Origin: Rhizobiaceae bacterium
GTDB lineage: Bacteria > Pseudomonadota > Alphaproteobacteria > Rhizobiales > Rhizobiaceae
Direction: 5' to 3'
Length of the DNA stretch: 35,121 nucleotides
Assembly: GCA_027000565.1 (NCBI GenBank)
Contig: JALTNS010000438.1
Span: 1-35,121 of the forward strand
The translations under genes were made by a program, and so were the position numbers. The notes beneath the pieces were generated by a model. It was given only the letters and a program-made list of their open reading frames with translations, was not told the origin of the DNA and did not search any database. This document shows, one piece after another, positions 4,900 through 8,758 of this stretch (the first letter of the stretch is position 1; every line of letters begins with the position of its first letter).

Positions 4900-4927
4900 G
4901 AGGGTTGGCGGGTGACCGCCAACCCTC
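4900..4927 (+). other. Strong stem-loop between binding protein and permease genes
   Basis: A perfect 12-bp inverted repeat, GAGGGTTGGCGG and its complement, with a GTGA loop, lies 8 bases after the binding protein stop and 25 bases before the permease ATG. No T tract follows, so it is not a standard terminator. Known ABC operons such as malEFG use hairpins here to stabilise the binding-protein mRNA segment and lower permease expression, and I infer the same role. Confidence 0.75.
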
Positions 4928-4952: not shown

Positions 4953-6059
4953 ATGTCCACTCAGGCCGACCTCTTACATGTGGTAACTTCGGACCATATC
5001 ACGCCCAGGCGCGCTGCGTTTGGTCGTTTTCTTGTCTGGGGCTCTGCCGGGCTGTTTGGCTTGAGTGTGCTATGGCAGGTGTTGTTCGAATTCGATGTCA
5101 CCGCGTTTGGTTTTGATAACTGGCGGCCGGTTCTTTATGCCTATGTCTTTTGGGCAATCTGCCTTTGCGTATCACAGGTGATCATTCGTGGCGAACAGGG
5201 CAAGCGGGCGCTGTTTGTTTTACCGGCTGTGTTGTTTGTCGTCTCGATGGTGGTATTTCCGCTGTTGTTTGGTCTTTCCATTTCATTTTCAGACTGGAAC
5301 CTTGCGTCTCTTGACGGGCGAAAATTCAACGGTTTTGATAATTTCCGCCAGATGTGGGCAGATCCGTTTTACTGGAACGCACTAAAAAACATGGTCTACT
5401 ACACGTTGGCCATTTCTGTTGAATATGCCATTGCCTTTGGATTGGCGCTGTTGCTCAACTCGCAAATACGCGGACAGAAATTTTTCCGCGTTGCATTTTT
5501 AATGCCGTTGATGTTGTCGCCGGTGGCGGTATCGTGGATGGTTGGCAAGTCGATGCTGGAAGTGCGCTTTGGCCCACTGGCGCGGTTGGCGCGGTGGATT
5601 GGTTGGGAAAACCCTTCGTTTTTTGGTACAGCCGAGTTTGCCCGTGCAACCATTATGATCATGGATGCCTGGACCTTCATTCCCTTTATGATGATTATGA
5701 TTTTGGCGGGCTTGCAGGCAATTCCGAAAGAGGTGCAAGAAGCCGCCATTGTTGATGGCGCATCGCCCTGGCAATCGTTCTGGCAAGTGACTTTCCCGCT
5801 GATGCTGCCAATTTCGATTACGGCAATTCTTATTCGCATCATATTCAAGCTGAAACTTGCCGACATCATTATCAATGTGACCTCCGGTGGACCCGGCGGG
5901 GCGACAGATTCTGTTACCAGTTTTATATTCCGTGAATACCGCGACCGCTCGAATGTTGGTTACGGCACCCTGCTGGCGATGGTTTATCTGGTGCTGATTG
6001 TGGTCGCGATCACCATTTTCATGAAGTTGGTCGATCGCTGGATGAACCCGAGGTATTAG
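4953..6059 (+). CDS. Sugar ABC transporter permease (MalF-like)
   Basis: About 368 residues from the ATG at 4953; an earlier TTG falls inside the stem-loop and is unlikely to be used. Two hydrophobic segments near the N-terminus precede the binding-protein-dependent permease domain, beginning around LFVLPAVLFVVSMVVFPLL. The EAA loop that docks on the ATPase reads EAAIVDGASPWQSFWQ followed by FPLMLP, a good match to the family pattern. It is an inner membrane subunit. The stop codon TAG at 6057-6059 is formed at the junction with an inserted element: without the insertion it would read TAA directly followed by the next ATG. Confidence 0.93.
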   Translation: MSTQADLLHVVTSDHITPRRAAFGRFLVWGSAGLFGLSVLWQVLFEFDVTAFGFDNWRPVLYAYVFWAICLCVSQVIIRGEQGKRALFVLPAVLFVVSMVVFPLLFGLSISFSDWNLASLDGRKFNGFDNFRQMWADPFYWNALKNMVYYTLAISVEYAIAFGLALLLNSQIRGQKFFRVAFLMPLMLSPVAVSWMVGKSMLEVRFGPLARLARWIGWENPSFFGTAEFARATIMIMDAWTFIPFMMIMILAGLQAIPKEVQEAAIVDGASPWQSFWQVTFPLMLPISITAILIRIIFKLKLADIIINVTSGGPGGATDSVTSFIFREYRDRSNVGYGTLLAMVYLVLIVVAITIFMKLVDRWMNPRY

Positions 6060-6077
6060 GGCATGTGGGCAATTAGG
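6059..6077 (+). repeat. Left terminal inverted repeat of the MITE-like element
   Basis: GGGCATGTGGGCAATTAGG, preceded by TA. It pairs with 6304-6322 with two mismatches in 19. Confidence 0.75.
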
Positions 6078-6303
6078 ATTTGGAAGACGGCATGAGGCAA
6101 AATTGTTCAAAATCAAGAGAAAAACCTCTGACACGGCGATCCCTTTCAAGGTTTTTAGATGAAACAATGGGCGAATTTGCTCGTATCCCGAGGAGGCGGG
6201 CAATTTCATACCTGAATACGTTGGAAATCTCTTGTAGTGGGGTGCGCCACGGCGAGCTTTCCACCTGTTCAAAACTGAAATTGTACTCGCGCCGCGACCG
6301 AAA

Positions 6304-6322
6304 CCTAATTGTCCACAGGCCC
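6304..6322 (-). repeat. Right terminal inverted repeat of the MITE-like element
   Basis: CCTAATTGTCCACAGGCCC on the plus strand, followed by TA and then the permease start. Its internal AGG, six bases before the downstream ATG, may now serve as a weak ribosome binding site. Confidence 0.75.
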
Positions 6323-6325
6323 TAA

Positions 6326-7246
6326 ATGTCAAACGCCCAGATATTCCACGACACCGAACAGGACTTAAGCCACAAAGCAAGGTGGTTGAGCAAACGGGTC
6401 ATGGTCTATGGAATATTGATATTCTGGGCAATCATTTGCCTGTTCCCGATCTATTGGACAATCACCACATCATTCAAAATTGCACCCGACGTGATGCGTG
6501 GTAATATGGTTCCGTGGTGGGATTACACGCCAAAATGGCTTGGCTGGAAATCGCTTGGAATGTCACCAGCGACGATATTTGATGAATCAACTGTGCGTGA
6601 GGAATTTATCAAACGCATCGTCAATTCGGCCTATGCAGCGATAGGCTCTTCCAGTCTGGCGCTGGTACTGGGCAGTCTCGCGGCTTACGGTCTTTCGCGT
6701 TTTAATTATAAATTCGGTTTCATGCGCAATCCGGATATTTCGTTTTTCTTTTTAAGCCAGCTTATCCTGCCTCCGGTGGTTCTGGCCCTGCCATTTTTGG
6801 TGCTTTACAAGGAACTGGCACTGCTCGACACCCGTATCGGGCTGATCCTGCTTTATGCGTTGACGGTATTACCGATTGTCATCTGGATCATGCGCGATCA
6901 GTTCGCTTCGATTCCGGTAGAAATAGAGGAAGCCGCTTTGGTCGATGGCATGTCCGTGTGGGGCTCTTTTTTTACAATCGTATTACCGATAGCCCTGCCG
7001 GGGCTGGTTGCGGCCTTTATATTGTCACTTGTTTTAACATGGAATGAGTATTTTTTTGCAGCCCTTTTGACCAGCACAGATGCTAAAACCCTGCCCGTAA
7101 TGGTCGCCAGCCAGACCGGCAGTCAGGGTATCAACTGGTGGTCGATGGCAGCACTTTCCGGGGCCGCGATTTTTCCGCTGGTGGTGATCGGTATTGTGCT
7201 GGAACGATATATCATCAAAGGCATGGCCTCGGGTGCCGGTAAATAA
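6326..7246 (+). CDS. Sugar ABC transporter permease (MalG-like)
   Basis: 306 residues with six expected membrane segments, the first around GILIFWAIICLFPIYWTITTSF. The periplasmic loop after segment one is followed by the permease domain. The EAA loop reads EEAALVDGMSVWGSFFTIVLPIALP and the end carries the WNEYFFAALLTS segment typical of MalG-type subunits. It would pair with the permease encoded just upstream and with the ATPase encoded on the other strand. Its original ribosome binding site (GAGG at 6050-6053, inside the upstream gene) is now about 270 bases away because of the inserted element; only AGG from the element end remains at proper spacing. Expression may therefore be reduced or uncoupled. 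Confidence 0.93.
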   Translation: MSNAQIFHDTEQDLSHKARWLSKRVMVYGILIFWAIICLFPIYWTITTSFKIAPDVMRGNMVPWWDYTPKWLGWKSLGMSPATIFDESTVREEFIKRIVNSAYAAIGSSSLALVLGSLAAYGLSRFNYKFGFMRNPDISFFFLSQLILPPVVLALPFLVLYKELALLDTRIGLILLYALTVLPIVIWIMRDQFASIPVEIEEAALVDGMSVWGSFFTIVLPIALPGLVAAFILSLVLTWNEYFFAALLTSTDAKTLPVMVASQTGSQGINWWSMAALSGAAIFPLVVIGIVLERYIIKGMASGAGK

Positions 7247-7366
7247 TAGCCTAACCACGGACCAACCACTACAATGTCGCATATGGATTGCTGTACGGCG
7301 CCCGCGTGATCAGACGTTTGTATGGTTTTGATAGATATCGCTCTTTCTTTGTGGCAGAGAGACAAA

Positions 7367-8758
7367 ATGTTTCTATCGGTATTTGACCTTTTCAAGATTG
7401 GCATCGGTCCGTCATCATCCCATACCATGGGGCCGATGGTGGCAGCCGGTATGTTTTTAGACGAGGTCGAAAACGGCGACTGGCCAAGGCCGCCCCTGGC
7501 GGAAGTTGTTCGCATTGGTGCTTCCCTGCATGGATCGCTGGCATTCACCGGCAAGGGTCATGGCAGCGACCGGGCCGTAATTTTGGGGTTGATGGGTGAA
7601 GACCCGAAAAATATCGACCCTGATACGGTCGATGCGATCCTGCAACAAGCACACAAATCCAAAAAAATTCCAGGTTCCCCTGGCTATCAGTTTGATCCTG
7701 AAAAAGATCTGGTGTTCGACTACGATACAAAACTTCAGGGCCATTCCAATGGGCTGGTGTTTTACGCCTATAACGACCTTGATATCGTGCTTTTGCGCAA
7801 AGTCTATTATTCGATTGGCGGCGGTTTTGTCGTCGAAGAAAGCGATCTTGAGCAGGCGCAATCCTTGCCCGGAGAAGCGCCGGCCAATGTGCCGTTTCCC
7901 TTTGCCAATGCGCAGTCCATGTTAAAAATGGCAAAAATATCGGGCCAGTCAATTGCTGAAATGAAACGCGCCAACGAGGAAGCTGCTATCGGCCATCAGG
8001 CTCTCGATCAGGGTCTGCACAATACATGGGCTGCGATGAATGCCTGTGTGGAGCGCGGACTTGTACAGGAAGGTGAATTACCCGGAGGGCTCAAGGTTAA
8101 GCGGCGGGCGAAATGCCTGCATCAGCGATTGAATGAGCAATGGAAATCAAATCACACCAACCCGCTTGCTGCCAATGACTGGCTGAGCCTTTTTGCGATG
8201 GCGGTGAACGAAGAAAATGCTGCCGGCGGCAAGGTTGTTACAGCGCCGACCAACGGTGCAGCAGGCGTTATCCCGGCGGTCATTCGCTATTACCTCGGGT
8301 TCAGTGATGGTGCCGACAAAAAGGGCATTGAAGAATTTTTGTTGACTGCCGCCGCCATTGGTGGACTGATCAAGCATAATGCGTCCATTTCAGGTGCTGA
8401 GGTTGGCTGTCAGGGGGAGGTGGGTTCTGCCTCCGCTATGGCTGCTGCCGGTCTTGCAGCCGTCATGGGCGGCACGCCGGAGCAGGTGGAAAATGCCGCG
8501 GAAATCGCATTGGAGCACCATTTGGGTATGACTTGCGATCCGGTTGGCGGGTTGGTTCAGGTGCCATGTATCGAACGCAATGCGCTGGGCGCGGTGAAAG
8601 CAGTGACGGCGGCATCACTGGCGCTGCACGGCGATGGCCAGCATTTTGTTTCACTCGACAGCTGCGTTGAGACCATGCGTCAGACCGGGCTTGATATGAA
8701 CGAGCGCTACAAGGAAACCAGCCAGGGTGGCCTTGCCGTCAACACAGTTGAATGTTGA
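7367..8758 (+). CDS. sdaA: L-serine ammonia-lyase, iron-sulfur type, single chain
   Basis: 463 residues from the ATG at 7367; an upstream ATG at 7322 would add 15 residues unlike the family. [24 protein letters not shown] is the classic SdaA/SdaB start. The alpha domain holds [10 protein letters not shown] and three conserved cysteines that bind the 4Fe-4S cluster, in [22 protein letters not shown] and QVPCIERNA. The enzyme converts L-serine to pyruvate and ammonia in the cytosol. It follows the sugar permease gene by 120 bases and may be independently transcribed. The last 30 bases of the gene recur 570 bp downstream with only synonymous differences, so the 3' end has a recombination history. 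Confidence 0.96.

Follow-up and report, generated by a model that had tools for sequence, protein, structure and literature searches.

The described systems closest to the element reported here include other small bacterial repeats. The Chunjie MITE of Geobacter uraniireducens likewise has terminal repeats and intergenic copies; it is 235 bp long and, as a review words it, disrupts one of two phosphate uptake operons. Bru-RS and RIME, found in Brucella and rhizobia, are likewise intergenic palindromic or mosaic repeats of the Hyphomicrobiales, and Bru-RS measures 103-105 bp, unlike the 264-267 bp of our element. Chunjie, Bru-RS and RIME are compared here by description only. The Rickettsia palindromic elements (RPE) and the enterobacterial RU elements are likewise small, mobile and equipped with open frames. 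As these elements are described, their frames merge with genes and the encoded peptide is retained, whereas the frame of our element starts and stops within the insertion and its peptide is unconstrained. Among insertion sequences, the IS427 group of the IS5 family (for example IS1248, ISPpa2 and ISPaes1, Paracoccus) likewise has, in Alphaproteobacteria, short terminal repeats and mostly 2-bp duplications (PMC3281130). The IS427-group elements of Paracoccus in Table 2 of that paper measure 832-865 bp, nearly all with 2-bp duplications and one with 4 bp.

The stretch of DNA analysed here (the window) is 35,121 nucleotides from a Rhizobiaceae bacterium. At positions 6059-6322, between two permease genes, it contains an element that is very probably a non-autonomous MITE found across the Hyphomicrobiales, which targets YTAR, duplicates TA, is most likely moved by IS427-group transposases and has entered the stop codon of permease 1. 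A literature search, mostly among papers accessible without subscription, returned no description of this element family. The features of the site are as follows.

4953-6059, plus strand: permease 1 of a sugar-type ABC transporter (BPD_transp_1 Pfam E 3.6e-17; ORF list)
6050-6053, plus strand: GAGG, presumed pre-insertion Shine-Dalgarno sequence of permease 2, inside the end of permease 1
6057-6058, no strand: left TA of the target-site duplication (sequence; empty sites at other copies)
6059-6322, plus strand: MITE, 264 bp (congener copies, alignments, fold)
6059-6077, plus strand: left terminal inverted repeat GGGCATGTGGGCAATTAGG (17/19 against the right end)
6082-6084, plus strand: GGA, weak Shine-Dalgarno-like sequence 7 nt before the element ATG (-4.4 kcal/mol)
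6091-6185, plus strand: fold arm 1, approximate, alignment columns 35-131 (consensus fold)
6092-6325, plus strand: 77-codon element ORF (sequence; its stop TAA at 6323-6325 abuts the permease 2 ATG)
6195-6291, plus strand: fold arm 2, approximate, alignment columns 143-241 (consensus fold)
6304-6322, minus strand: right terminal inverted repeat (exact match to the shared end pattern)
6317-6319, plus strand: AGG from the element end, sole Shine-Dalgarno remnant for permease 2 (-2.5 kcal/mol)
6323-6324, no strand: right TA of the target-site duplication (sequence)
6326-7246, plus strand: ABC transporter permease 2 (BPD_transp_1 Pfam E 9.1e-15)

The element at the permease junction

Both neighbours of the element match BPD_transp_1, in agreement with the pair of permease genes proposed by an earlier, sequence-only reading of this DNA. 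By direct reading, the C-terminal end of permease 1 is CCCGAGGTAT, followed by a TAG stop at 6057-6059, and its end residues are the same as in many relatives' proteins. The ORF list also offers a longer form of this gene with a TTG start at 4905. The ORF that follows permease 2 (7322-8758) is presumably L-serine dehydratase-like, judged by a motif; in the congeners, a presumably sugar kinase-like ORF adjoins the permease.

Direct reading confirmed the terminal inverted repeats and the TA on both sides that had been claimed for the element. The two 19-bp ends agree at 17 positions, and the arms reach 28 nt at 86% complementarity. The permease 1 stop consists of TA and the first G of the element, which therefore supplies the last base of the codon, as had been noted. 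Excising the 264 bp together with one TA gives GAGGTATTAAATG, in which GAGG is followed by 6 nt and an ATG. This reconstruction agrees with the claim that the original junction had a TAA stop, an ATG directly after it and a properly spaced GAGG.

The MITE very probably inserted into the TA of the permease 1 stop codon. Because the element begins with G, TA and G again form a stop and no protein was broken. On its other side the element ends at a TA directly before the permease 2 ATG. The insertion shifted the GAGG Shine-Dalgarno sequence 266 nt away from permease 2, so that this gene would now be started via the weak AGG or by ribosomes arriving in the element frame (TAA ATG).

Dispersed copies and empty sites

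Counting the window's own genome, three of the genus's four genomes contain the element. Nine dispersed matches were found in the congener G002 and ten in G003, with identities of 67-83%; most of these copies are TA-flanked and have matching ends of the form TAGGNCNTGTTGACA (the partial copies L029-L031 were left out of the genus-copy counts). The congener G001, which is 72% complete, gave no element match. In the window's own draft assembly (3.7 Mb in 525 contigs) the single match was the element itself, with no second copy. A search of this genome for the end pattern, allowing up to 2 mismatches, yielded 5 forward and 6 reverse matches versus 1 and 3 for the reversed control, and the matches were exact only at the two ends of this element. 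The expectation that the same and related genomes would hold further copies was therefore borne out in G002, G003 and other Hyphomicrobiales but not in the own draft genome.

On a broader scale, a family-level search located the element in 9 of 394 genomes (6 of 109 genera) and an order-level search in 15 of 397 genomes (12 of 142 genera); the two samples overlap, and scoring covered two candidates per genome. The order-level search added 25 new loci (L282-L306), 15 of which were taken into the later alignment while partial matches were dropped. L290, L299 and L281 were dropped because they had no anchors, and the degenerate L291 was left out of the stop-depletion analysis described below. With queries from two other lineages, plasmids of Rhizobium sp. 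SSA_523, Terrarubrum flagellatum and Roseibium aggregatum were found to carry the element; the window element as query gave no match against plasmids. The outermost ~14 bases vary by lineage, both ends changing together, and the interior is conserved. Genome G152 contains 31 matching pieces of the element, and one further copy there is 99% identical to the query copy of that genome, suggesting recent activity in G152. The same genome has internally shortened elements with both ends kept (L210, L204, L206, L208 and L162), which measure 143-218 bp, both TA positions included.

For ten copies the flanks were joined with the element removed, and the resulting sequences were sought across all four genomes from the genus. 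Empty orthologous sites with a clean junction and one TA were found for L023 (against L218) and L020 (against L250), the alignment of the latter spanning only 29 nt beyond the junction. The orthologues of L019, L013, L017, L015 and L026 also lack the element but show small indels or changes close to the junction. L018 aligned on its right side alone, and L016 had no junction-spanning match outside its own genome among the four. Taken together, the dispersed copies and the empty sites with one TA indicate that the family moves and duplicates TA. The element is short, has inverted terminal repeats, a TA duplication and several dispersed copies, and has no transposase of its own; its only long sense frame, 77 codons from its ATG, is without a Pfam match. 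On these data the insertion is a genuine MITE, an element type that is already known. The MITE claim of the sequence-only reading is borne out by the congener copies with matching ends and by the element-free orthologous sites; the genus holds both other copies and empty sites, whose joint absence had been named as one argument against a MITE.

Two observations concern the flanks of individual copies. In the orthologue of L028 (L248, G002:C111, between locus positions 500 and 585), the flanks are separated by 84 other nucleotides, which may be a remnant or a different insertion. The L020 copy adjoins, in its right flank (query 1368-1440), a second dispersed repeat of ~50-73 bp. G002 and G003 contain dozens of copies of this repeat, in places as tandem runs ~56-59 bp apart; its sites include G002:C75:25699-25924, G002:C133:24801-25025 and G002:C71:73455-73680.

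The permease junction in relatives

The permease junction was located in 78 of the 88 scanned loci, two places being present twice. In the congener loci L041 and L042 the permease genes are separated by 16 and 33 nt, respectively, with no element. Among the 74 other distinct loci, the genes overlap or lie at most 4 nt apart in 55, 5-20 nt apart in 17 and 21-60 nt apart in 2. The element is absent from the junction in both congeners and in all 74 (gap of at most 60 nt). The comparison with permease orthologues therefore confirmed the absence of the element but did not recover the exact empty junction, whose form is reconstructed, the congeners differing at their 16- and 33-nt spacers. A further reading to consider is that the sequence does not move and is a conserved part of the permease operon, serving as its leader or coupling element. 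The element folds well, as such a leader might, but it is missing from all of these junctions, it sits at unrelated loci, and empty sites exist. This reading is hardly credible and we regard it as refuted.

Target site and stop codons

The target was analysed in 38 rejoined sites, which include two orthologous pairs (L014/L021 and L022/L025). Copies that do not show both ends clearly, among them L175, L158, L200, L202, L203 and L205, and also L207 and L211-L217, were excluded from the counts. In five of the 38 sites CA or AA replaces the left TA, and these were counted unchanged. A pyrimidine (Y) precedes the TA position in 37/38 sites and a purine (R) follows it in 37/38, with both in 36/38. 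The full YTAR is present in 31/38, against a background in which 431 of 3802 TAs are YTAR. The flanking TAs reported earlier fit the duplication seen at the empty sites of other loci, but the target is YTAR and not any TA.

In 16 of the 38 cases the element sits in a stop codon native to a called gene, compared with 19 of 132 non-genic YTAR sites in the null (binomial p=3e-5). The remaining sites lie outside (13) or inside (9) mechanically called ORFs. The counts use the rejoined flanks, where any stop must be native. With a looser criterion, any open frame of at least 100 codons, 18/38 sites are stops. The empty orthologues L218, L250 and L232 have a stop at the same place. Stop codons offer YTAR sites, and both element ends begin with G, so that TA and G regenerate a stop as TAG; this accounts for the recurrence of insertions at stop codons. 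In-frame insertion into genes of the RPE type was considered and rejected, since neither 264 nor 267 plus 2 bp is divisible by three and the rejoined sites are mostly stops or outside ORFs, in the numbers given above.

Lone ends resembling TAGGCTGTATCGACAT were also observed at L254, L255, L259-L264 and L269, where the TAG is the stop of a long open frame. Isolated ends at stops (G152/G269) were kept out of the counts because a gene-truncating insertion would look identical. At L157 and L177 the insertion TA terminates frames of at least 100 codons in both directions, as is the case for convergent genes with a common stop.

A candidate mobilising transposase

A search of 9 genomes for DDE_Tnp_1_2 (PF13586) gave matches in 5. 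Locus L276 of G073 is an IS427-type insertion sequence of 847 bp between two TAs, with the target CTAG; its two frames encode PF13340 and PF01609/PF13586 domains. Its left end, GGCGGTGTGGACAAACAGGATT, is identical at 19/22 bases to the end of the MITE copy L015 of G002, a match that joins an insertion sequence and a MITE of different genera. Three contigs of G115 end inside an element showing one insertion sequence end, CTAGGTCCTGTTGACAAAG, which has 14/16 bases of the A-type end; the adjoining transposase fragments are below the family cut-off. The MITE copies of G073 and G115 have ends unlike the insertion sequence ends seen in those genomes. In G000, G002 and G003 the PF13586 search found no insertion sequence sharing the ends of the element, and the orphan ends in these three genomes gave no paired insertion sequence. 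The G003 element L272 has other ends, and L274, found by the same search, has no paired ends.

The shared ends, the TA duplication and the target suggest that the element was most likely moved in trans by transposases of the IS427 group (IS5 family), which fits the IS5 group named among the candidates at the outset. The likeness lies in L276, with its L015-like end, its TA flanks and its CTAG target. The transposase of L276 is a candidate for the mobilising enzyme, expected to be of the DUF4096 plus DDE type. Unlike members of the IS427 group, the MITE is 264-267 bp long and has no transposase, and no partner was found in the window's genus.

The open frame of the element

A frame begins at an ATG 33 nt inside the element, and the TAR of the target provides its stop at the right end; in the window this stop, TAA, is made of the right TA and the next base. 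In 23 of the 27 copies aligned the frame runs uninterrupted, the exceptions being L024, L020, L177 and L199, which contain stops. In L164 and L165, which are among the open copies, AGG replaces the start codon. Overall, the codon at this place is ATG in 36/41 copies and GTG in 1.

Stop depletion was tested with 21 of 27 representatives (<90% identity), divided into a 267-nt class (15) and a 264-nt class (6). Compared with the expectation under column independence, frame 0 has 2 stops vs 9.9 in the 267-nt class (P=0.001) and 0 vs 2.9 in the 264-nt class (P=0.027). The corresponding values are 51 vs 56.0 (P=0.022) and 31 vs 31.8 for frame +1, and 13 vs 15.2 and 8 vs 7.3 for frame +2. Both length classes stay in frame despite internal +1 and +2 differences between them. 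A milder column-independence null gives a chance of openness of 0.51-0.61 per copy (12/12 open), so that inherited constraint may explain much of the openness. Our first simulation of openness (0.05-0.36 per lineage) ignored column constraint, and the later nulls are preferred.

The open frame and its conserved start could mark a small protein gene between inverted repeats, with a functional 77-aa product. However, pN/pS in the open frame is ~1 (1.02 within the genus, 0.95 and 1.04 across lineages), the mark of unconstrained amino acids. Neither the window at 6080-6325 nor two lineage consensus peptides matched Pfam, and tblastn of one consensus peptide against plasmids gave no match. A functional product is therefore very improbable. 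A protein-coding element was rejected on the pN/pS values, by which at most openness is selected.

Translation of permease 2

Anti-Shine-Dalgarno energies were computed just upstream of the starts. For permease 2 the energy is -7.3 kcal/mol without the element, which equals the value in L043 and L044, and -2.5 kcal/mol with it, bearing out the claim that the insertion leaves only AGG as a ribosome binding site. The congeners L041 and L042 have -6.2 and -5.1 kcal/mol at this gene. At the element's own start, four other forms that were tried gave -3.6, -6.1, -6.2 and -6.5 kcal/mol. The broader claim that the insertion rewires translation is right as to the loss of the native Shine-Dalgarno sequence but incomplete, as the element frame may pass ribosomes on. 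Termination-reinitiation is described as needing overlaps or very short distances and as dropping steeply with distance (PMC10666635). Given this fall with distance, inserting 266 bp between coupled genes is expected to be harmful in the absence of a bridge. From the sequence we infer that permease 2 is either made less or served by ribosomes from the element frame.

A tentative explanation for the second outcome is that the MITE has been selected for a frame from ATG to TAR that carries ribosomes to the next start, the peptide being irrelevant. In full, ribosomes would cross the element, terminate on the start of the next gene and so preserve operon expression, a scheme that we put forward with reserve. 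The retained start codon is consistent with it, as is the depletion of frame 0 stops in both length classes with the frame kept across internal shifts. ORFs of at least 100 codons begin no more than 15 nt from the right end in 14/53 copies and from the left end in 2/53 (p=0.004). The frame is intact in 13/14 start-adjacent copies vs 19/34 other full-length copies (p=0.018). On the Terrarubrum plasmid, the soxB stop TAG consists of TA and G, followed by the element and then by TAATG at the annotated soxD start.

Several points weigh against this translational bridge. The pN/pS of ~1 and the milder null both weaken the case from openness, frame +1 is likewise slightly stop-poor in the 267-nt class, and the frame is broken in 16/48 full-length copies. 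Only in the window's genus do the copies tend to follow the orientation of the genes (14:2 upstream, 12:2 downstream); elsewhere they do not (10:8 upstream, 6:12 downstream), and a general orientation rule was dropped for this reason. The tests were chosen once the data had been inspected, and the copies are related. The start-adjacent set holds the hand-added L280, whose soxD has <100 codons, and two second orthologous copies: the test gives p=0.035 without the duplicates, p=0.036 without L280, and 10/11 vs 20/35 (p=0.068) without both. The downstream ORF of L013 is ambiguous, since an opposite-strand gene is called there. Of the two left-end ORFs, the one at L280 runs antisense to soxB and is unlikely to be a gene. 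The frame counts exclude the shortened copies L162, L204, L206, L208 and L210.

Two features of this family were unexpected: its preference for inserting at stop codons, and a frame that has almost no stops and is otherwise unconstrained. The family shows how a TA-duplicating mobile element can take up residence in an operon and leave the proteins intact, and lets one ask whether selfish DNA evolves host-sparing features. The candidates for such features are the stop-regenerating insertion at stop codons and a frame that is largely stop-free yet free in its amino acids. It is conceivable, though doubtful, that the element has evolved to be harmless in operons, YTAR targeting, the restored stop and the sequence-free frame together making a portable bridge for translational coupling. 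The target would then supply the frame stop at the next start, and ribosomes, perhaps also transcription, might be carried across; we hold this extension to be equally doubtful.

Fold of the element

The single-stranded DNA of the element folds at -52.5 kcal/mol, compared with a shuffled mean of -33.5 (z -5.3; 0/200 shuffles as good). The consensus fold of 27 copies is Y-shaped, with an outer stem formed by the two ends and two long arms. It has 94 pairs, and 60/94 show double-sided changes. In this consensus, 94.6% of 2531 cells are paired vs 81.2% after shuffling and 36.7-45.6% after sliding, figures that the relatedness of the copies inflates, controls included. The consensus fold is stronger on the plus strand (-109.1 kcal/mol) than on the minus strand (-93.7). 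Among pairs common to both strand folds, arm 1 has 30 G.U vs 8 A.C cells. The G.U:A.C counts are 9:12 in the outer stem and 7:11 in arm 2, where the plus strand is not favoured; the asymmetry belongs to arm 1 alone.

Selection could in principle act on a folded transcript, as an mRNA processing or stabilising site or as an sRNA, in which case insertions in operons would alter stability and not initiation. The high proportion of paired cells, the double-sided changes, the stronger plus-strand fold and the G.U excess of arm 1 point in this direction. So does a likeness to BSR1073 (Rfam RF02614), an sRNA of Brucella melitensis: all seven searched copies of G019 match this family, across the full length of the family and mostly with the left part of the element, at 25.7-33.3 bits. 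However, these scores are far below the gathering score of 241 bits, and the 13 other sources searched gave no BSR1073 match. The outer stem and arm 2 lack a plus-strand preference, and palindromes kept for transposition would yield paired columns too, with relatedness inflating the controls. We consider selection on a transcript unlikely. Near two of the G019 copies, matches to the Rfam family BASRCI27, a Brucella sRNA family with a palindromic core, were also observed (L172:1731-1867 and L175:2988-3064), at 57.0 and 45.1 bits against a gathering score of 59.8.
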